From the IMG/VR virus record IMGVR_UViG_3300050821_001130, positions 1 through 46,104 of that record: DNA of 46,104 nucleotides. One strand, 5' to 3'. Below the pieces are notes generated by a model. The model was not told the origin of the DNA and ran no database searches. It saw nothing but the letters and a program-made list of their open reading frames with translations. The DNA is from a virus. The translations under genes were made by a program, and so were the position numbers. Positions 1,800 through 46,104 of this stretch are shown here, one piece after another (within the stretch, counting starts at the first letter, position 1; every line of letters starts with the position of its first letter).

Positions 1800-1875
1800 T
1801 GGCGAAGGTGGGATTCGAACCCACGTCGTGGGGCTTATGAGGCCCTGCTGGTACCGAGCTCCAGTCCACTCCGCA
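1800..1875 (-). tRNA. tRNA-Met (CAT), possibly initiator-like
   Basis: Anticodon loop CTCATAA (CAT) on a stem with three consecutive G-C pairs (GGG/CCC), T arm GTGGG/CCCAC with TTCGAAT. The first acceptor pair is mismatched (T1 against C72) while six further pairs form. Three G-C pairs plus an unpaired 1-72 position are hallmarks of bacterial initiator tRNA, so this may be tRNA-fMet; an elongator or Ile(CAU) identity is not excluded. It is the first tRNA of the array in transcription order. Confidence 0.8.
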
Positions 1876-1877
1876 TC

Positions 1878-1895
1878 GAGCTGGAGAACCAGCTC
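1878..1895. repeat. Hairpin upstream of the tRNA array
   Basis: Seven-bp stem GAGCTGG/CCAGCTC with loop AGAA, lying between the small minus-strand protein genes and tRNA-Met. On the plus strand it is followed by TTT; on the minus strand there is no T run. Could be a processing hairpin or a weak terminator. Confidence 0.5.
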
Positions 1896-1937
1896 TTTGT
1901 ACTACTATAGCACACGATCGTTAGCTTGTCAAGTCAG

Positions 1938-2060
1938 CTACTGAAGATCCTTACGAGCCGGGATCTTGTCCGGCAGAGCCTTCCGCTCGATGAGCGGAGC
2001 TGTAGCTTCCTTAGCAGCCTTCACAGCAGCCTCATAGGCTGCCTTCTCTTCAGGTGTCAT
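1938..2060 (-). CDS. Small charged protein, 40 aa
   Basis: ATG at 2060 follows GGAGGG by 4 nt, a strong site, and overlaps the preceding stop (TGATG), indicating translational coupling. The product is Ala/Lys/Glu rich (TPEEKAAYEAAVKAAKEA) and probably mostly helical. It is the last protein gene before the tRNA array. No family recognised. Confidence 0.75.
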   Translation of the reverse strand: MTPEEKAAYEAAVKAAKEATAPLIERKALPDKIPARKDLQ

Positions 2061-2242
2061 CAAACCCTCCGATTGCCCTTCTTGTCGGTGATGACAACAT
2101 CGCCCTTGGCGTTCTTCACCAAGTCACTGTCTGTACCACTGGCCAGCAACTGCTGGCCACTACGGTCTTCGGCAGCAGGCTTACCCTGCGGATAGTAGTC
2201 CTCGCCTGCGGTGGGGATGTAGTCGTAGCCTGTTCGATTCAA
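2060..2242 (-). CDS. Hypothetical protein, 60 aa
   Basis: Start chosen at TTG 2242, just after the upstream stop at 2244; a longer reading from ATG 2274 would overlap the Acb2-like gene. Hydrophilic product rich in Gly, Asp and Lys (C-terminal part GDVVITDKKGNRRV). Its stop overlaps the next start. Function unknown; it shares an operon with DNA polymerase and the Acb2-like gene. Confidence 0.65.
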   Translation of the reverse strand: MNRTGYDYIPTAGEDYYPQGKPAAEDRSGQQLLASGTDSDLVKNAKGDVVITDKKGNRRV

Positions 2243-2243
2243 C

Positions 2244-2459
2244 TTACTCGTGCCTCGCAATGCCAGCATTGGCCCAGTAGACGGCCTCTTCCAAGTGCGT
2301 GATAGCCAGGGACAGCTCACGGCTGTCCGGAACAACCTCATTCAGATACTGAGCGAAGTTGTGTGCTTCCTGCCTGATGTTCTCATACCGCTCAGCCTGC
2401 TTAAAAGCAGCTATCGGCGGATGGTATGTAAACCTATTAGCCAACTCCGAAGGAGTCAC
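2244..2459 (-). CDS. acb2: Acb2-like cyclic-nucleotide sponge (anti-CBASS)
   Basis: 71-aa protein from GTG 2459, preceded by GGAAGGA at 7 nt. The pattern FTYHPP, then AERYENIRQEAHN, then VPDSRELSLAITHLEEAV and YWANAGIARHE matches my recollection of the Acb2/Vs.4 family, small helical proteins that assemble as hexamers and bind the cyclic di- and trinucleotide messengers of CBASS, so the effector is not activated. Length is near family size (about 70-95 aa). It would act in the host cytoplasm early in infection. Family assignment is by motif recognition only; ligand specificity cannot be read here. Confidence 0.82.
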   Translation of the reverse strand: MTPSELANRFTYHPPIAAFKQAERYENIRQEAHNFAQYLNEVVPDSRELSLAITHLEEAVYWANAGIARHE

Positions 2460-2641
2460 TACTTATTCCTTCCAGTGCGTGTGCCAAAGAAACCGTGCGT
2501 GTCAGGCTTAACAGCCTTCATGCCTTCGACAATAGTCGAGTCCACATACTCGCTCGGTGGAACACTTGTTCGCTGCGTAAGCCGACCGGCAGGAAGGTGC
2601 TTGTTCCAACCAACCGGGTCCTTACCCCTAATCTCGCTCAT
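2459..2641 (-). CDS. Hypothetical protein, 60 aa
   Basis: Start at ATG 2641 after GGGGAAG; it overlaps the end of the polymerase gene by 14 nt, and its stop overlaps the acb2-like start. Basic C-terminus (FFGTRTGRNK). No family recognised. Overlap on both sides suggests translation coupled to polymerase. Confidence 0.7.
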   Translation of the reverse strand: MSEIRGKDPVGWNKHLPAGRLTQRTSVPPSEYVDSTIVEGMKAVKPDTHGFFGTRTGRNK

Positions 2642-4499
2642 ACAAACTTCCCCAACTCCTAGAACCAATCTTGGCCTCTGCTGGAATGTCCAGCGGACCG
2701 ATCCTGGTGCTCATGATACGTACAATGTCCTGCACGATCTCATCCTCGCACGGAAGCGAGAACAGAACTTCGTCGTGGATCGGCAGTCGCATGTACTCCA
2801 CGTACCCAGCATCGTACAACCTAATCATAGCATGAGCTGTCAAGTCTCGACAACCCGACTGGATGAAGTAGTTGAAGGCCGCGTACTCGTGGCCTTCGTC
2901 CACAGGCAGCCTACGGCCCGTCCAGGTCTCGATGTAGCCGTTCTCCTTGGCAAACTTCTGGAGCTTGTCAGAGAAGGCAGCCATGCCCTTGTAGGCACTC
3001 TTGATACCACTGCGGACGTCCACCGCAGACTCGTAGGGCATGCCTTGGCGGACAAGCCCACTCACCCCAGCGCCGTATCCTACGGCGAAGTTTCCCATCT
3101 TTGCCAGGTCGTAGTACTTTGTACCCTTAGATACATTAGCAATGCCAGGGAAGGCAGCTCGTGCGGTGATCTCATGCAAATTCTCACCGTTACGAAATGC
3201 TTGAATCATTCGGGCATCTGGAGACTTAATGGCCGCGAACCTGAGTTCCTGATTCGCGTAGTCTACACCCACAATCCGCTCGTTCATGTCTGCCACAAAG
3301 CAGGAACGCACCAGCGGGTCGCCAGACGGCAGGGTCTGTGCTGGAATCCCAGTAATAGAGAACCTTGCAGTCCTTGCACGGAGGGTATTCGTCGAAGGGT
3401 GAACCCGCCCAAGCGAGTCGGCTTCGTTCAGAAACTTCTCTACCCAAGTCTTCCTCCACTTGCCAGCCTTACGGCCTGCCTTGATAGCCTCAATCAGTGG
3501 GTGATCCGGCAACAGAGCGAACTCCTGCTTGGTCACCGAAGAGGCTCCCTTGGCTGTGAGGCCTAGAATCACTATACCATCACTGTCAAGGGTGGGCTGA
3601 GTGCCCTTCCCGCCGATCTCTTCACCACGTCGAGCATCGTGCTTAGCCAACCCCAGCGTCACCAGAGCTTCGGACACCCGGTCAGCGGAGTTGATGTTCT
3701 CCAGACCATAGTCCCATGCGATGTCCTTCTGGTTCTCCTCCTCTTCGAAGAGAGTATCCGCTAGGTTCTGCGTGTACTCGTGATCGAGTAGGAAGCCCTT
3801 GGCATCCATGAGGGTAGCGATCATCGCTACCTTGTGGTCATTCTTTGTCAACTCACTGTTGACGTCCACCTGACGAGACAGGATCTTGAAGAGCCGTGCT
3901 GCGCCGATGGCGTCAGTGCCAGCATAGATCAGAAACAGCTCGTTGTCAATAGGCATGAAGCGATACATGTCACCTTCAGACGTGCCAGCTCCCTTCGGGA
4001 GCATCTTCGCCTTGCGCAAGCGCATGTACTCAGCCTTCAGTTCCTTCTTGAGCTTGTAGCAGTCTGGAACATAGCGCTCCAGAAGATTCTCCAGGCTCTG
4101 TCCGGTACCACCTTCATCGACACCACGAGGATCCACCTGGTGTGCTAGAATCTTGGTGTCTCGTGTCCACATCCATAGGCCCTCTATGCTCAGGTACGGC
4201 TCATGCCGTACGAGCACCTGGATGTCATAGGACGCGTTGTGCATGATGAGACGCTTACCACTCAAGCGCTCACAGAGCGCTGGTGTCATGTTCCAGAACG
4301 TCTCAGCGGGGAATACGTACGCCTCTGTGGGCGTAGCCAAGGCGATCAGGCGAAGCCTGTGTCCATCGGAGTAGATGTCAAGACCTGTAGTCTCAGTGTC
4401 CAGCGCCAGCGTATGCTGACGCTCCATCCACTCCCACATAACGGTCAGGTCTTCGTACCTCTCAGGTACATAGATACTACCGTTTGCGAGTACTCGCAA
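2628..4499 (-). CDS. polA: DNA polymerase I (family A) with 3'-5' exonuclease
   Basis: 623 aa. N-terminal DnaQ-like proofreading domain: DTETTG (residues 34-39) and HNASYD (87-92). C-terminal polymerase: RTARFS (376-381), motif A DYANQELR (413-420), motif B around KMGNFAVGYGAG (467-478), motif C PIHDEV (573-578). No 5' nuclease domain, as in many phage enzymes. TTG start at 4499 with AGGAG 5 nt upstream. First gene of a minus-strand operon and transcribed divergently from whiB; the replicative polymerase of this phage. Confidence 0.95.
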   Translation of the reverse strand: MRVLANGSIYVPERYEDLTVMWEWMERQHTLALDTETTGLDIYSDGHRLRLIALATPTEAYVFPAETFWNMTPALCERLSGKRLIMHNASYDIQVLVRHEPYLSIEGLWMWTRDTKILAHQVDPRGVDEGGTGQSLENLLERYVPDCYKLKKELKAEYMRLRKAKMLPKGAGTSEGDMYRFMPIDNELFLIYAGTDAIGAARLFKILSRQVDVNSELTKNDHKVAMIATLMDAKGFLLDHEYTQNLADTLFEEEENQKDIAWDYGLENINSADRVSEALVTLGLAKHDARRGEEIGGKGTQPTLDSDGIVILGLTAKGASSVTKQEFALLPDHPLIEAIKAGRKAGKWRKTWVEKFLNEADSLGRVHPSTNTLRARTARFSITGIPAQTLPSGDPLVRSCFVADMNERIVGVDYANQELRFAAIKSPDARMIQAFRNGENLHEITARAAFPGIANVSKGTKYYDLAKMGNFAVGYGAGVSGLVRQGMPYESAVDVRSGIKSAYKGMAAFSDKLQKFAKENGYIETWTGRRLPVDEGHEYAAFNYFIQSGCRDLTAHAMIRLYDAGYVEYMRLPIHDEVLFSLPCEDEIVQDIVRIMSTRIGPLDIPAEAKIGSRSWGSLYERD

Positions 4500-4545
4500 G
4501 GTAACTCCTACCTAGCTAGTTCTTTCCTTAACTGCTGGTGTTCGT

Positions 4546-4575
4546 AGCATACACATGGATCTTGGTGTCTGTCAA
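4546..4575 (-). promoter_or_regulatory. Promoter for the polymerase operon
   Basis: On the minus strand TTGACA (4575-4570) and TATGCT (4551-4546) are separated by 18 bp, a close match to a primary-sigma promoter reading toward DNA polymerase, whose start is about 47 nt beyond the -10. Confidence 0.7.
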
Positions 4576-4587
4576 CTCGGCTCCATT

Positions 4588-4605
4588 GGGCCTGGTCACA
4601 GGCCC
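4588..4605. promoter_or_regulatory. Inverted repeat between divergent operons
   Basis: Perfect 7-bp inverted repeat GGGCCTG/CAGGCCC around GTCA in the polA-whiB gap. It sits next to the minus-strand -35 and before a plus-strand TTGACA (4607-4612), a good place for an operator. The plus-strand TTGACA is only 2 bp from TATGCT (4615-4620), too close to be a promoter with it. The whiB mRNA may be leaderless from TAGTCT (4620-4625). Confidence 0.45.
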
Positions 4606-4631
4606 TTGACAGTGTATGCTAGTCTTGCTGC

Positions 4632-5120
4632 ATGACTTACGGACGACAGGATGCCCAGTTCAGTTACGAGACGGAAGATCTTATAGACGGCAACTACCAC
4701 GACTGGTTCTGGCAGGGTCTCTCAGAGGATCAAGTCATCTACCTGCGACAACCAGCCCGAGTTGACAAGGCGGAGCAGGAACCGGTAGCCTATGATGGAT
4801 GGGAAGCAGAGCAGCCTCGCAAGTGGCAACACGATGCAGCGTGTGCTGGCGCTGATCCCGCGATCTTTTTCGACGACGGTAATCAGCCTAAGAAGGCTTA
4901 CCTTCGCGATGACGCCGAGTGGCGTGAGTACTGCCCGCAGTGCCCTGTGCGAGAACTCTGCCTAGAGGCAGCCAGGGATTCTGAGTCTGTGGGAATCTGG
5001 GGCGGCGTCTACCGTGGCGTTGACCGAAAGAGCAAGCAGATCGAGGAAGTGGATGATCGAATTCCTAATGCCGCAGCACGCAAGCCACTCAGCTATGAAC
5101 AACTACATTCGCTGCGGTAA
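4632..5120 (+). CDS. whiB: WhiB-family Fe-S transcription regulator
   Basis: 162 aa. Four conserved cysteines: C71 (AACAGADPAIFF), then C101, C104 and C110 (CPQCPVRELC), followed by the turn GIWGGV (121-126) and a basic segment. These ligate a [4Fe-4S] cluster in the family, which binds the principal sigma factor. WhiB proteins are confined to Actinobacteria and their phages, the best host clue here. The N-terminal ~65 residues are an extra extension. There is no ribosome binding site before ATG 4632, so the mRNA may be leaderless. First gene of the plus early operon; likely an early expression switch. Confidence 0.93.
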   Translation: MTYGRQDAQFSYETEDLIDGNYHDWFWQGLSEDQVIYLRQPARVDKAEQEPVAYDGWEAEQPRKWQHDAACAGADPAIFFDDGNQPKKAYLRDDAEWREYCPQCPVRELCLEAARDSESVGIWGGVYRGVDRKSKQIEEVDDRIPNAAARKPLSYEQLHSLR

Positions 5121-5877
5121 GGCTTACGAGCTTGGTAAGCTTGGTGTGACAGAAGCACCTGCTTGGTGGCTTCTCGGTGGAAGTGCAGTACACAAGGCAA
5201 CTGAATGGCTGGATAAGGGTGAATGGGACGATGCCCCTGAGATGGCTTTCTACACAGCATTCAACAATGAGATCTTTGACGCTGTCGATAGAGAGCCTGA
5301 TCAGGAGCTATGGCGTAAGGCTGGTTATGGTGCGCGAGCACAGGGCTATGACCACTGGATGAAGCAGGGCCCACTGTACGTTAAGCAGTGGGCTGACCGG
5401 GTGCAAACCTGGCAATGGATTGAGCTAGATGTTTCTACTACGCTGCCCTCTGGGATCAAGGTCAAGGCGTATATCGACCGCGTGAGCAGGATCGGAAACT
5501 TGTTTGAGATCGTAGATCTCAAGACTGGAAGTACTCGACCTGACTCCGACCAGCAGCTAGGCATCTATTCAGTCCTACTACGCAGTTATATCAGTCGTAG
5601 TGTAGCACGGAACGTGTTCGAGCCTATTACCATTCAGGCTTACAACTACATGTTCAAGGACGACGAGTTCTATGACATGGATGTGTCCAACTGGAACATC
5701 CATACACTTGACGCACTAGCTACGGAGTGGTACAATGGACTTGAGTCCGGAGTTTTCCTCCCAAACCGAGGAAAGCAATGTGCAAGCTGCGGACTCTCCG
5801 CAGCCTGCTACCTCAACAGTGGCGACACGCCGACGACGCGCAGATTCGACAAGCTCAACCCCAACTACGAAGGGTAG
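5053..5877 (+). CDS. Cas4/RecB-like PD-(D/E)XK exonuclease
   Basis: 274 aa from ATG 5053, behind GAGGAAG; it overlaps the end of whiB by 68 nt. Motifs: H47 in GGSAVHKATEW, D142, catalytic EIVDLKTG (152-159), and QQLGIY (167-172). Cysteines C21, C243, C246 and C252 match the split [4Fe-4S] site of Cas4/AddB-type nucleases. No helicase domain. Expected role: end processing in recombination-dependent replication. A longer reading from 5014 would only add whiB shadow. Confidence 0.88.
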   Translation: MIEFLMPQHASHSAMNNYIRCGKAYELGKLGVTEAPAWWLLGGSAVHKATEWLDKGEWDDAPEMAFYTAFNNEIFDAVDREPDQELWRKAGYGARAQGYDHWMKQGPLYVKQWADRVQTWQWIELDVSTTLPSGIKVKAYIDRVSRIGNLFEIVDLKTGSTRPDSDQQLGIYSVLLRSYISRSVARNVFEPITIQAYNYMFKDDEFYDMDVSNWNIHTLDALATEWYNGLESGVFLPNRGKQCASCGLSAACYLNSGDTPTTRRFDKLNPNYEG

Positions 5878-5878
5878 C

Positions 5879-6382
5879 ATGGTTACTAAGAAGGAGACTC
5901 CCGAGGTGGATCCTTGGGAGGACAAGGAGAATCCTGTGACAGTCATCAAGGGTTCTGGTGGTGAGTACGCCTCGATCACGTTCAAGGCTGGCTCTGGGTA
6001 CAACGCTCCCTGGCTCGTTCTGAAGCCCTCCAGCATGGATGAGGCCAAGGAGATGGTCCAGCACGATGACCTGGAAGAGCTTTTGGACCTGATCGCTCGC
6101 AAGAACAAGGTGTTCGAGAAGTCGTTCGGTGGCATTCCTACACCGGCTGGCCCGGCGCCTAAGGCGTCCGGAGGAGGCAACTGGGGCAACAAGTCCAAGG
6201 CTTCCAGCGGTTCGTCTGAGGTGCCTTCTGGCACCTGTTCCGTGCACAACTGCGACCTACAGTTCGCGGATGCCTTCACCAAGCGTGACGGTTCCAAGGT
6301 GAACGCTCGTGTCGGTTGCCCTGTACCGAAGTGCTACTCTGACACTGTGTGGCAGAACGATGATGGAACGTGGGGTAAGTAA
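5879..6382 (+). CDS. Hypothetical zinc-ribbon protein, possible ssDNA-binding partner
   Basis: 167 aa from ATG 5879 (GAAGGG 4 nt upstream). A compact N-terminal domain (YASITFKAGSGYNAPW), a Gly/Ser/Lys linker around residue 95-120, and a C-terminal CSVHNC ... CPVPKC zinc site. Position between the exonuclease and the ATPase suggests a nucleic-acid-binding recombination or replication accessory. That role is inferred from context only. Confidence 0.7.
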   Translation: MVTKKETPEVDPWEDKENPVTVIKGSGGEYASITFKAGSGYNAPWLVLKPSSMDEAKEMVQHDDLEELLDLIARKNKVFEKSFGGIPTPAGPAPKASGGGNWGNKSKASSGSSEVPSGTCSVHNCDLQFADAFTKRDGSKVNARVGCPVPKCYSDTVWQNDDGTWGK

Positions 6383-6385
6383 CTG

Positions 6386-6862
6386 ATGGCTACGCAACAG
6401 GACATTGAAGATATCAGTGTCGCGAAGTTTGTGATCAAGGTGGCCATTGGGGTCATCGTTGGCCTTATGGTCGTGGTCTTCGGCATCTCCGTAGGCCTTG
6501 GAGCCTACGGACGTTGGAGCAAGGTTCAGGAGGCCAAGACCCAGGCTCAGACGGCGCGTATTGACGCGGCCAACCAGGCTCAGGTCAACCAGTTGCTGAT
6601 CAACTCTGCTGATCAGCAGATTCAGATTCACCAGAAGCAGGCTCAGATCCGTCTGGCCGATGCTGTCGGTATTCGTGAGGCACAGGACGAAGTCAGCAAG
6701 ACCCTGACTCCGCTGTACGTTCAGTTCGAGATGGTTGATGCTCTGAAGACCATCGCCGATTCGGGAAAGAACAACACGGTGGTCTACATTCCTACCGGTG
6801 CCAACGGCATTCCGCTGATCAGCAACACCGACAGCACGCAGGTTGGTACCCCGAAGGGCTAA
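6386..6862 (+). CDS. Membrane-anchored coiled-coil protein
   Basis: 158 aa, ATG 6386, 3 nt after the previous stop. One strong transmembrane segment (about 14-38, VAIGVIVGLMVVVFGISVGL), then an Ala/Gln-rich coiled coil (48-95), then a C-terminal part with LKTIADSGKNNTVVYIP that resembles the end of SPFH/prohibitin-like proteins, though the SPFH core is absent. Probably a cytoplasmic-membrane protein with a cytosolic tail; function unknown. Confidence 0.75.
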   Translation: MATQQDIEDISVAKFVIKVAIGVIVGLMVVVFGISVGLGAYGRWSKVQEAKTQAQTARIDAANQAQVNQLLINSADQQIQIHQKQAQIRLADAVGIREAQDEVSKTLTPLYVQFEMVDALKTIADSGKNNTVVYIPTGANGIPLISNTDSTQVGTPKG

Positions 6863-6865
6863 CCC

Positions 6866-7093
6866 TTGAATATGAAGATCTGGTTGTTCATAGAACCTGA
6901 TAAGGTCACTGACAGTTGGCACAGTGGTGGTTCCGTCATGGTTATCGCTGAGACGGAGGGGCAGGTTAAGAACCTGCTTGCTCACACCGAAGTGGAACTG
7001 TCTGAAGACGACTGGGAGAACGTGCGAACGTTCCCTACGCACTCTTACGTGCCTGCTGAAGTATTCATCTTTCCAGATTCGGGATGTTGCTAA
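6866..7093 (+). CDS. Hypothetical protein, 75 aa
   Basis: TTG 6866 lies 7 nt after GAAGGG; ATG 6872 is the alternative. Mixed alpha/beta composition starting MKIWLFIEPDKV and ending PDSGCC. One base before the next start. No family recognised. Confidence 0.65.
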   Translation: MNMKIWLFIEPDKVTDSWHSGGSVMVIAETEGQVKNLLAHTEVELSEDDWENVRTFPTHSYVPAEVFIFPDSGCC

Positions 7094-34762: not shown

Positions 34763-34834
34763 GGGCCTTTAGTGATAACGGAAGCACATCCGGCTTGCAC
34801 CCGGAGGGTCGGGGTTCGATTCCCCGTTGGTCCA
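34763..34834 (+). tRNA. tRNA-Ala (TGC)
   Basis: The only plus-strand tRNA. Acceptor GGGCCTT/TTGGTCC contains the G3-U70 wobble that identifies alanine tRNA (inner pairs 6 and 7 are T-T). Anticodon arm TCCGG/CCGGA with loop CTTGCAC (TGC), T arm CGGGG/CCCCG with TTCGATT. It supplies the one amino acid missing from the minus-strand array and sits in the late operon, so processing of the late mRNA could release it. Confidence 0.9.
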
Positions 34835-34945
34835 CTCCGCCACGTACAACTCAGCAGCGTGGTTGTGTATACAGTCTGAGACACTAATCAAAGTATCCGG
34901 CAAGCAACCCCGGCTTGACGCGGCTTAAAATGGGAGTAGCAAGGA

Positions 34946-44942: not shown

Positions 44943-44968
44943 GCCCCTGACTCGAAAGAGTCAGGGGC
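44943..44968. terminator. Late-operon terminator (bidirectional)
   Basis: Perfect 11-bp stem GCCCCTGACTC/GAGTCAGGGGC with a GAAA tetraloop, 12 nt after the last late gene, followed by ATTCTTCATTT. It also lies downstream of the minus-strand tRNA and microprotein transcript, with TTTC on that side, so it may end both. Confidence 0.92.
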
Positions 44969-44977
44969 ATTCTTCAT

Positions 44978-45118
44978 TTAGCAGGAGAGGTGACATCTGC
45001 TATTGTGGTCGTAACAATGTGTAGTTGTTGTGGGAGGGTTGTGTCCGCTTGCGCATCCTGAGCACCAACAGTGCAACCCTAGGGGACAACTAGCAGCCCA
45101 TATGGCATCCGTTGGCAT
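44978..45118 (-). CDS. Cys/His-rich microprotein gamma, 46 aa
   Basis: ATG 45118 (GAAG 5 nt upstream), overlapping the end of the beta ORF in the +1 frame. Contains CPLGLHCWCSGC, then HCYDHNSRCHLSC, which has the same C-x2-H-x3-C-H-x2-C spacing as the end of beta. Could be a separate gene or, by frameshift, the C-terminal part of beta. Ends 10 nt before the shared terminator. Confidence 0.55.
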   Translation of the reverse strand: MPTDAIWAASCPLGLHCWCSGCASGHNPPTTTTHCYDHNSRCHLSC

Positions 45119-45281
45119 GATCTTCACAGTGACCACCGGGGGTGCCAATGTTTCCATCACCACAGGCACCGACCATACACCCATGGTGGAAGCACGAGCG
45201 GTGCTGATCACAGAATATGTACCCTTCGGGTGGAGTTTCCTGGGCTGGCTGGCCGCGATGGCGGCCTCCACGTTGCCTCAT
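45090..45281 (-). CDS. Cys/His-rich microprotein beta, 63 aa
   Basis: ATG 45281, 7 nt after AAGAAGG and overlapping the stop of alpha (TAATG), so the pair is translationally coupled. Basic N-terminus (RQRGGRHRGQPAQ), then CDQHRSCFHHGC (24-35) and HCEDHANGCHMGC (51-63): two related 12-residue Cys/His units likely to bind metal. No family recognised. Antisense frames here look random. Confidence 0.65.
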   Translation of the reverse strand: MRQRGGRHRGQPAQETPPEGYIFCDQHRSCFHHGCMVGACGDGNIGTPGGHCEDHANGCHMGC

Positions 45282-45382
45282 TATGCAGCCTTCTTACATG
45301 CAGAATTTCCACAGCAGCTGGTTGTCAACAGACACCAGCCACAGAGGCAGTTGCATCCTTGTGCCTTACATATCTTCATCAT
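45281..45382 (-). CDS. Cys-rich microprotein alpha, 33 aa
   Basis: Tandem ATGs at 45382/45379, just past the last tRNA. Its ribosome site AGGGGA is the 3' acceptor strand of tRNA-Thr. Eight cysteines in 33 residues (MKICKAQGCNCLCGWC, then CC and C) with Lys-rich ends. Metallothionein-like or disulfide-rich; function unknown. Confidence 0.6.
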   Translation of the reverse strand: MMKICKAQGCNCLCGWCLLTTSCCGNSACKKAA

Positions 45383-45384
45383 AG

Positions 45385-45455
45385 ATCCCCTACGAAGAAT
45401 CGAACTCCGGTCAACTGTTTACAAGACAGTAGCTCTACCACTGAGCTATAAGGGC
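45385..45455 (-). tRNA. tRNA-Thr (TGT)
   Basis: Anticodon arm ACTGT/ACAGT with loop CTTGTAA (TGT), D arm GCTC/GAGC, T arm CGGAG/CTTCG. Acceptor GCCCTTA/TAGGGGA has a G1-A72 mismatch. Last tRNA of the array in transcription order. Its 3' strand is also the Shine-Dalgarno of microprotein alpha. Confidence 0.88.
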
Positions 45456-45488
45456 AATGCGCGGACGGTAGTCCGGCGCGGTACAGAG

Positions 45489-45562
45489 TTGGTACGGTAG
45501 GACTTGAACCTACGATCTTTCGGTTATCAGCCGAATGCTCTAACCTGCTGAGCTACGCACCA
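45489..45562 (-). tRNA. tRNA-Ile (GAT)
   Basis: Acceptor TGGTGCG/CGTACCA, anticodon arm TTCGG/CCGAA with loop CTGATAA (GAT), T arm GTAGG/CCTAC with TTCAAGT. All arms regular. Confidence 0.94.
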
Positions 45563-45566
45563 TTGG

Positions 45567-45637
45567 GGTGGATACCCGGAGTTGAACCGGGACCTCTTGA
45601 GTCACAGTCAAGAGCTCTGCCATTGAGCTATACCCAC
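45567..45637 (-). tRNA. tRNA-His (GTG)
   Basis: Acceptor GTGGGTA/TATCCAC, anticodon arm CTTGA/TCAAG with loop CTGTGAC (GTG), T arm CCCGG/CCGGG with TTCAACT. Discriminator C73, as expected for histidine. Position -1 is T on the gene strand rather than an encoded G. Confidence 0.92.
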
Positions 45638-45643
45638 AGTGTT

Positions 45644-45687
45644 AACCGCATATATGCGGTAGCACGTCGGACATCGAAGATGTCCAC
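45644..45687. repeat. Hairpins in the tRNA-His/tRNA-Leu spacer
   Basis: A perfect 16-bp palindrome ACCGCATATATGCGGT (about 45645-45660) and a 7-bp stem GGACATC/GATGTCC with loop GAA (about 45669-45685). Another example of paired inverted repeats between tRNAs. Confidence 0.8.
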
Positions 45688-45688
45688 G

Positions 45689-45761
45689 TCACTAGGGTGA
45701 GATTCGAACTCACATCTCTCAGGGTTTGAACCTGAAGCCTCTACCATTGGGCTACCTAGCG
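45689..45761 (-). tRNA. tRNA-Leu (CAA), short variable arm
   Basis: Acceptor CGCTAGG/CCTAGTG, anticodon arm TCAGG/CCTGA with loop TTCAAAC (CAA), T arm GTGAG/CTCAC, discriminator A. The variable region is about 5 nt. Its D arm (GCCCAATGGTAGAGGC) is nearly the same as in tRNA-Leu(TAG), so both seem to share a class I ancestor. Confidence 0.86.
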
Positions 45762-45765
45762 TAAG

Positions 45766-45844
45766 TCACGGATCAAGGAATCGAACCTTGCTAGCCAACC
45801 GGCACCGGTTTTACAGACCGGCTTGTTTCCCAGAACCATCCGCG
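45766..45844 (-). tRNA. tRNA-Tyr (GTA)
   Basis: Acceptor CGCGGAT/ATCCGTG, anticodon arm CCGGT/ACCGG with loop CTGTAAA (GTA), extended variable arm as in bacterial tyrosine tRNA, T arm CAAGG/CCTTG. Confidence 0.93.
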
Positions 45845-45849
45845 TTGTG

Positions 45850-45920
45850 CTCTCCACCAAGGATTCGAACCCCGACCGATTGGTTCAGAGCCAATCGTGC
45901 TGCCATTACACCAGCGGAGA
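45850..45920 (-). tRNA. tRNA-Gln (CTG)
   Basis: Acceptor TCTCCGC/GTGGAGA, anticodon arm ATTGG/CCAAT with loop CTCTGAA (CTG), T arm CGGGG/CCTTG with TTCGAAT, D arm GTGT/GCAC. Confidence 0.92.
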
Positions 45921-45924
45921 TCAG

Positions 45925-45997
45925 TCAGACGTACGGGATTCGAACCCGCGCCTACTACCTTGACAGGGTAGCGCTCTAGCCTCTAAGCTAACGCCCG
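45925..45997 (-). tRNA. tRNA-Asp (GTC)
   Basis: Acceptor CGGGCGT/ACGTCTG, anticodon arm CTACC/GGTAG with loop CTGTCAA (GTC), T arm GCGGG/CCCGT. The discriminator is A, where bacterial Asp tRNA usually has G. Confidence 0.9.
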
Positions 45998-46007
45998 TTG
46001 TAACACG

Positions 46008-46081
46008 CTGACATAGCAGGACTCGAACCTGCATCTTTGAGATTAACAATCTCACGCTTTACCTGATTAAGCTATACGCCA
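46008..46081 (-). tRNA. tRNA-Asn (GTT)
   Basis: Acceptor TGGCGTA/TATGTCA, anticodon arm TGAGA/TCTCA with loop TTGTTAA (GTT), T arm GCAGG/CCTGC with TTCGAGT. Adjacent to tRNA-Trp across the junction. Confidence 0.92.
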
Positions 46082-46088
46082 TTGAAAG

Positions 46089-46104
46089 CAAGCCCTGTAG
46101 GAAT
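46089..46104. repeat. Terminal 16-bp direct repeat (right copy)
   Basis: Identical to bases 1-16. It begins a second copy of the tRNA-Trp 3' end. Confidence 0.9.

Follow-up and report, generated by a model that had tools for sequence, protein, structure and literature searches.

Beta, gamma and probably alpha belong to an unrecorded, phage-only family of Cys/His-rich microproteins encoded beside tRNA genes

Beta, gamma and probably alpha, three small minus-strand ORFs between a tRNA array and a terminator, are members of an unrecorded family of Cys/His-rich microproteins that was found only in phages. Related viruses carry up to ten distinct copies in tandem. We tentatively favour, at a probability of about 0.45, the reading that the family consists of phage-specific, metal-stabilised mini-domains, paralogues with separate host or phage partners that would serve takeover or counter-defence.

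Results

Gene layout and tRNA setting

The stretch of DNA analysed here (the window) is an entire IMG/VR virus record of 46,104 bases. Its genome size and layout resemble those of the Beephvirinae Streptomyces phages, and its terminase shares 45% identity with the best terminase of that group. The Beephvirinae RosePharie, Treat, FlowerPower and Stella have tRNA arrays as the window phage does but lack the microproteins (Stella was examined in part), and their array precedes the capsid gene, whereas that of the window phage follows the lysis genes. In the window, a single plus-strand tRNA-Ala (34763-34835), just ahead of the capsid gene, occupies the site at which Beephvirinae phages have their entire array. 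The minus-strand array overruns both record ends (1-1875 and 45384-46104), and the contig therefore probably represents a circular or permuted genome that was opened within the array.

The three ORFs described by a sequence-only reading of this DNA are indeed present on the minus strand: alpha (45281-45382, 33 aa), beta (45090-45281, 63 aa) and gamma (44978-45118, 46 aa). The start of gamma is uncertain, as a GTG at 45127 is possible besides the ATG at 45118. We also found the eight Cys reported for alpha, which shows the group xCxCxCxxCLLTTxCCGNxxCK, the TAATG junction between alpha and beta, and the ribosome site of beta (AAGG, seven bases ahead of its ATG). The unit C-x2-H-x3-C-H-x2-C closes both beta (CEDHANGCHMGC) and gamma (CYDHNSRCHLSC) in different frames, as had been noted. 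The supposed variant in an earlier part of beta does not duplicate the tail; alignment with relatives identified it as a divergent version of the four-Cys first half of a family member, while gamma is a canonical member. The gamma frame stays open well upstream of the ATG at 45118, across beta, which is trivial because TGY, CAY, AAY and GAY codons (Cys, His, Asn and Asp) give no stops in the +1 frame. Downstream of the block, a terminator-like hairpin (44943-44968; 11 pairs, T-rich tail on both strands) stands at the end of both the microprotein genes and a convergent gene for a 114-aa protein, and separates the two.

Directly upstream of alpha lie minus-strand tRNA genes (45384-46081; the array resumes at 1-1875), the nearest of which is tRNA-Thr (45384-45455). 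The ATG of alpha follows it after about 2 bases, and a possible ribosome site for alpha, AGGGG (45387-45391, minus strand), falls within its 3′ acceptor strand. The same arrangement was seen in three other contigs: 2-6 bases separate tRNA-Thr from the start of the first microprotein (window 45380-45455, L005 5015-5097, L037 330-398, L007 1470-1556), whose ribosome site GGGGAT lies inside the acceptor strand. The sequence GGGGATCTATG at the alpha ribosome site is identical in L007 and L037. The tRNA-Thr of L007 has decayed, and ARAGORN gives no call for it; its 3′ half, with the ribosome site, is retained. Given a ribosome site inside the acceptor strand, translation may compete with tRNA cutting, or the cut may leave a near-leaderless mRNA.

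Relatives found by neighbouring genes and evidence for coding

The lysin and the 114-aa protein, both encoded nearby, served as queries in a search for relatives that left the motif out. The contigs L005, L007, L008, L009, L011, L013, L014 and L015 all have Cys/His microproteins at the same site and on the same strand, between the 114-aa gene and the tRNAs; L011 alone encodes six, abutting or overlapping one another. Because these relatives were found independently of the motif, they answer the question, raised with the original description, whether close relatives keep the Cys/His pattern: they do.

Nei-Gojobori comparisons of homologues revealed purifying selection, with pN/pS about 0.04-0.6 overall at pS values that mostly lie between 0.5 and near saturation, the closest pair having 0.18. 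The ratio was 0.16-0.59 for alpha (against L007, L013 and L018) and 0.04-0.60 for beta, with 0.26 against L009 and L015 and 0.04 between these two contigs. Gamma and its variants gave 0.17-0.38, gamma itself 0.25-0.36 against L007, L008 and L013, and tandem copies 0.10-0.35. Changes in most of the invariant Cys and His codons are synonymous. Alpha, beta and gamma thus all evolve as protein-coding genes.

Anatomy of a family member

Canonical members contain two clusters, C-x4-6-C-x-C-x-C-x2-C and HC-x2-H-x3-CH-x2-C, with a variable loop between them. The consensus reads C-x3-4-G-x-C-x-C-x-C-x2-C, a loop of 2 to about 25 residues, HC-x2-H-x2-G-CH-x2-C and then the stop. A member averages 7.9 Cys and 3.7 His over 43 residues, and C-x-C is almost invariant. 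Conservation is concentrated in the eleven Cys/His columns, which hold 57 bits against 24 bits in the other 34 columns. Hydrophobic residues make up 16%, the mean charge is +0.6, and metal-free AlphaFold runs produced no confident model (pLDDT 53 and 61); the few hydrophobics and the lack of a confident model would both be expected if a metal holds the fold, and a fold search on these models was dropped, as they were too uncertain. From this pattern we infer that family members bind metal, most likely zinc, through ligands arranged in two clusters. Each of the 74 members examined has an in-frame start (74/74), in many cases with a Shine-Dalgarno motif. Shorter relatives, C-x-C-x-C-x2-C-x4-HC-x6-C, occur near or between tRNAs. 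A short inter-tRNA Cys/His peptide that resembles the family, in L037 (about 240-330), has a TGA in place of an Arg codon of L009 and L015 and is probably a broken copy.

Membership of the window ORFs and extent of the family

Membership of the window ORFs was assessed with a profile of 34 members from other phage contigs, with the relatives of the window left out. Gamma (E 2.3e-6) and beta (E 1.5e-3) ranked first and second among 1311 window segments, and the best of 40 Markov shuffles reached 0.009, which bears out the earlier view that the repeated unit exceeds chance. Alpha was not recognised (E 4.9); its case is made by a conserved group of its own, for which a profile built from five alpha-like peptides found matches confined to this phage group, beside family members.

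Searches with single proteins were too weak, the queries being short and Cys-rich: beta matched nothing in viral_contigs or the named phages, and tblastn with three other members gave chance-level matches or none. We therefore used neighbour and pattern searches. In IMG/VR, 31 stretches matched the DNA pattern HC-x2-H-x-N-x-CH-x2-C and 47 a second, related one; both searches fixed the tail spacing, so that its constancy is partly built in and the neighbour-found set provides the free test. In many of the matched stretches the first half is also rich in Cys and a stop follows 0-6 residues past the tail, features outside the pattern. Together with the neighbour-found relatives, the scans place the family on some 35 contigs of about 4-166 kb. 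Four viral loci (L100, L102, L107 and L123), in which a single ORF recurs with TTG as its sole start, were left out as probable shadow ORFs.

The same pattern matched 47 loci in 84,980 species genomes. We regard these bacterial loci as chance matches, as their taxa are scattered and the Cys-rich first half is absent. With the full profile, about 30 viral loci fall below 1e-8, and the best bacterial locus has 4.5e-6, at the noise floor of about 5e-6 that tail-selected loci reach by construction. The full profile found nothing in 296 Actinomycetota genomes (positive control: 26/27 virus records). None of 59 members had a match of credible score in Pfam, PHROGs or solved structures (PDB), nor did any of eight members tested against NCBIfam, and we found no report of such a microprotein family in the open-licence literature. 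The family is absent from the seven named Streptomyces phages examined, Faust, Alone3 and Stella (each in part), RosePharie, Treat, FlowerPower and BRock; a cultured phage that carries it may exist beyond these seven.

Tandem copies and their surroundings

In the 45-kb group the microprotein genes come after the tRNA array and share its strand. Among the 80-166 kb contigs, some members lie near tRNAs and several far from any, and in L026 three members adjoin replication genes. A helicase-like ORF near these three genes (L026 223-2655) seems to bear an intein, with LAGLIDADG-like blocks and an ...NYIVTHN/T... junction. In L114, a contig of 12.9 kb, eight members are scattered among and after seven tRNA genes (1809-6867).

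We compared three array contigs with 5, 10 and 8 detected members. Outside the Cys/His residues, identity was 33-93% at matching array positions versus 4-34% between non-matching copies, with the first copy of L147 unmatched. Array positions are thus orthologous between phages, and their retention by position speaks against the copies being interchangeable. Non-ligand codons are under real but moderate constraint (pN/pS mostly 0.3-0.8).

Discussion

Between a plain metal buffer and zinc-stabilised mini-domains that each have their own partners, we prefer the latter, because conservation is position-specific even though the constraint is moderate. The microproteins would be co-transcribed with the tRNAs, in the 3′ portion of the array transcript, and translated through overlapping, coupled starts. 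In each paralogue the metal sites would form the only core, and its own loop surface might, as a guess, be shown to one particular protein or RNA of the host (or of the phage). Their purpose, again a guess, might be that of small accessory takeover or counter-defence proteins. The inhibition of a host factor, suggested by the sequence-only reading, is possible and close to this preferred reading. A bolder version gives every tandem copy a host factor of its own to neutralise or redirect, so that the phage would carry a kit of up to ten specific zinc mini-effectors; it strikes us as rather speculative. Several points weigh against this reading: the moderate constraint outside the ligands would fit a metal buffer too, the near-zero net charge does not favour nucleic-acid binding, the constancy of the tail spacing is partly built into the pattern searches, and some members of the large contigs lie far from tRNAs.

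A buffer is what phage metallothioneins would be: in the infected cell they would do no more than hold or remove soft metals such as zinc and copper, and additional copies would increase the dose. Such peptides fit the C-x-C-x-C motifs, a content of about 8 Cys and 4 His per 43 residues, ligand columns that are by far the best conserved, a neutral charge, the lack of a hydrophobic core and as many as ten copies per contig, yet the copies are old, different and kept by position, and their orthologues conserve non-ligand residues, which weakens the metal sponge proposed earlier in its simple version. The bacterial metallothioneins SmtA/BmtA (PDB 1jjd, 6gv6, 6gv7, 6grv) are likewise small and Cys-rich, with some His, C-x-C-x2-C and little hydrophobic core, but their ligand order differs, and the family described here has tandem paralogues with position-specific non-ligand residues and was found only in phages. 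Neither SmtA nor any metallothionein family matches by profile: hhalign of A1 against SmtA gave a probability of 0.7% over one column, Pfam and NCBIfam contain no metallothionein match, and the family profile has no match in the PDB. The sequences thus indicate that the family is not metallothionein by homology, although it may still work like one; on balance we consider a purely metal-storing role less likely than the mini-domains. We discarded a further idea, namely that zinc is sequestered by the peptides in order to silence the tRNase RloC: RloC is inhibited by zinc (PMC2610378), and removing the metal would therefore not help the phage.

The neighbouring tRNAs suggest zinc-knuckle-like helpers that bind, protect or process the co-encoded phage tRNAs. 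The genes lie directly after or between same-strand tRNAs in the 45-kb group, L036, L044 and L114, and phage tRNAs have been proposed to evade tRNA-cutting defences (PMC10264068), which also counts for such helpers. The tRNA-distant members of the 80-166 kb contigs, the absence of the family from the tRNA-rich Streptomyces phages Treat, FlowerPower and BRock, and the net charge near zero speak against them, and we judge this account improbable; a tRNA-specific role is possible but not required. The CCHC zinc knuckle resembles the family in being a short peptide whose likely zinc ligands are Cys and His, but it is spaced C-x2-C-x4-H-x4-C, whereas the family has C-x-C-x-C-x2-C ... HC-x2-H-x2-G-CH-x2-C, about ten ligands in two clusters and no Pfam match. 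By spacing the family is not a CCHC knuckle, though it may still work like one. High Cys content and a stop directly after the Cys-rich tail could instead point to secreted disulfide-rich peptides or precursors of modified peptides. We consider this very improbable, and the disulfide peptide of the sequence-only reading unlikely, given the invariant His beside Cys, the lack of any signal peptide apparent when the microproteins were read by eye, and the lack of a family match. Equally improbable is that beta and gamma form one protein through a programmed +1 frameshift. Gamma does lie in the +1 frame after beta in several relatives, and L008 and L014 have 23-36 codons between the nearest gamma start and the first Cys that follows it, but all 74 members have their own in-frame start, many stand alone in other places, L009 and L015 have beta without gamma, and no slippery site is shared at the beta stop where gamma would be joined. 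What stands of the original proposal of metal-binding-like peptides is that they are real, Cys/His-patterned and placed to be read with the tRNAs; the joining by frameshift does not.

Current annotation is not suited to genes as small and odd as those of the microproteins, yet the genes are coding, conserved and multiplied in tRNA-bearing, soil-type phages. Unexplained gaps in or after phage tRNA arrays can therefore hold real genes, and the family profile is a search tool for further members. For phage biology, the family provides a defined set of small proteins that are probably folded by metal.
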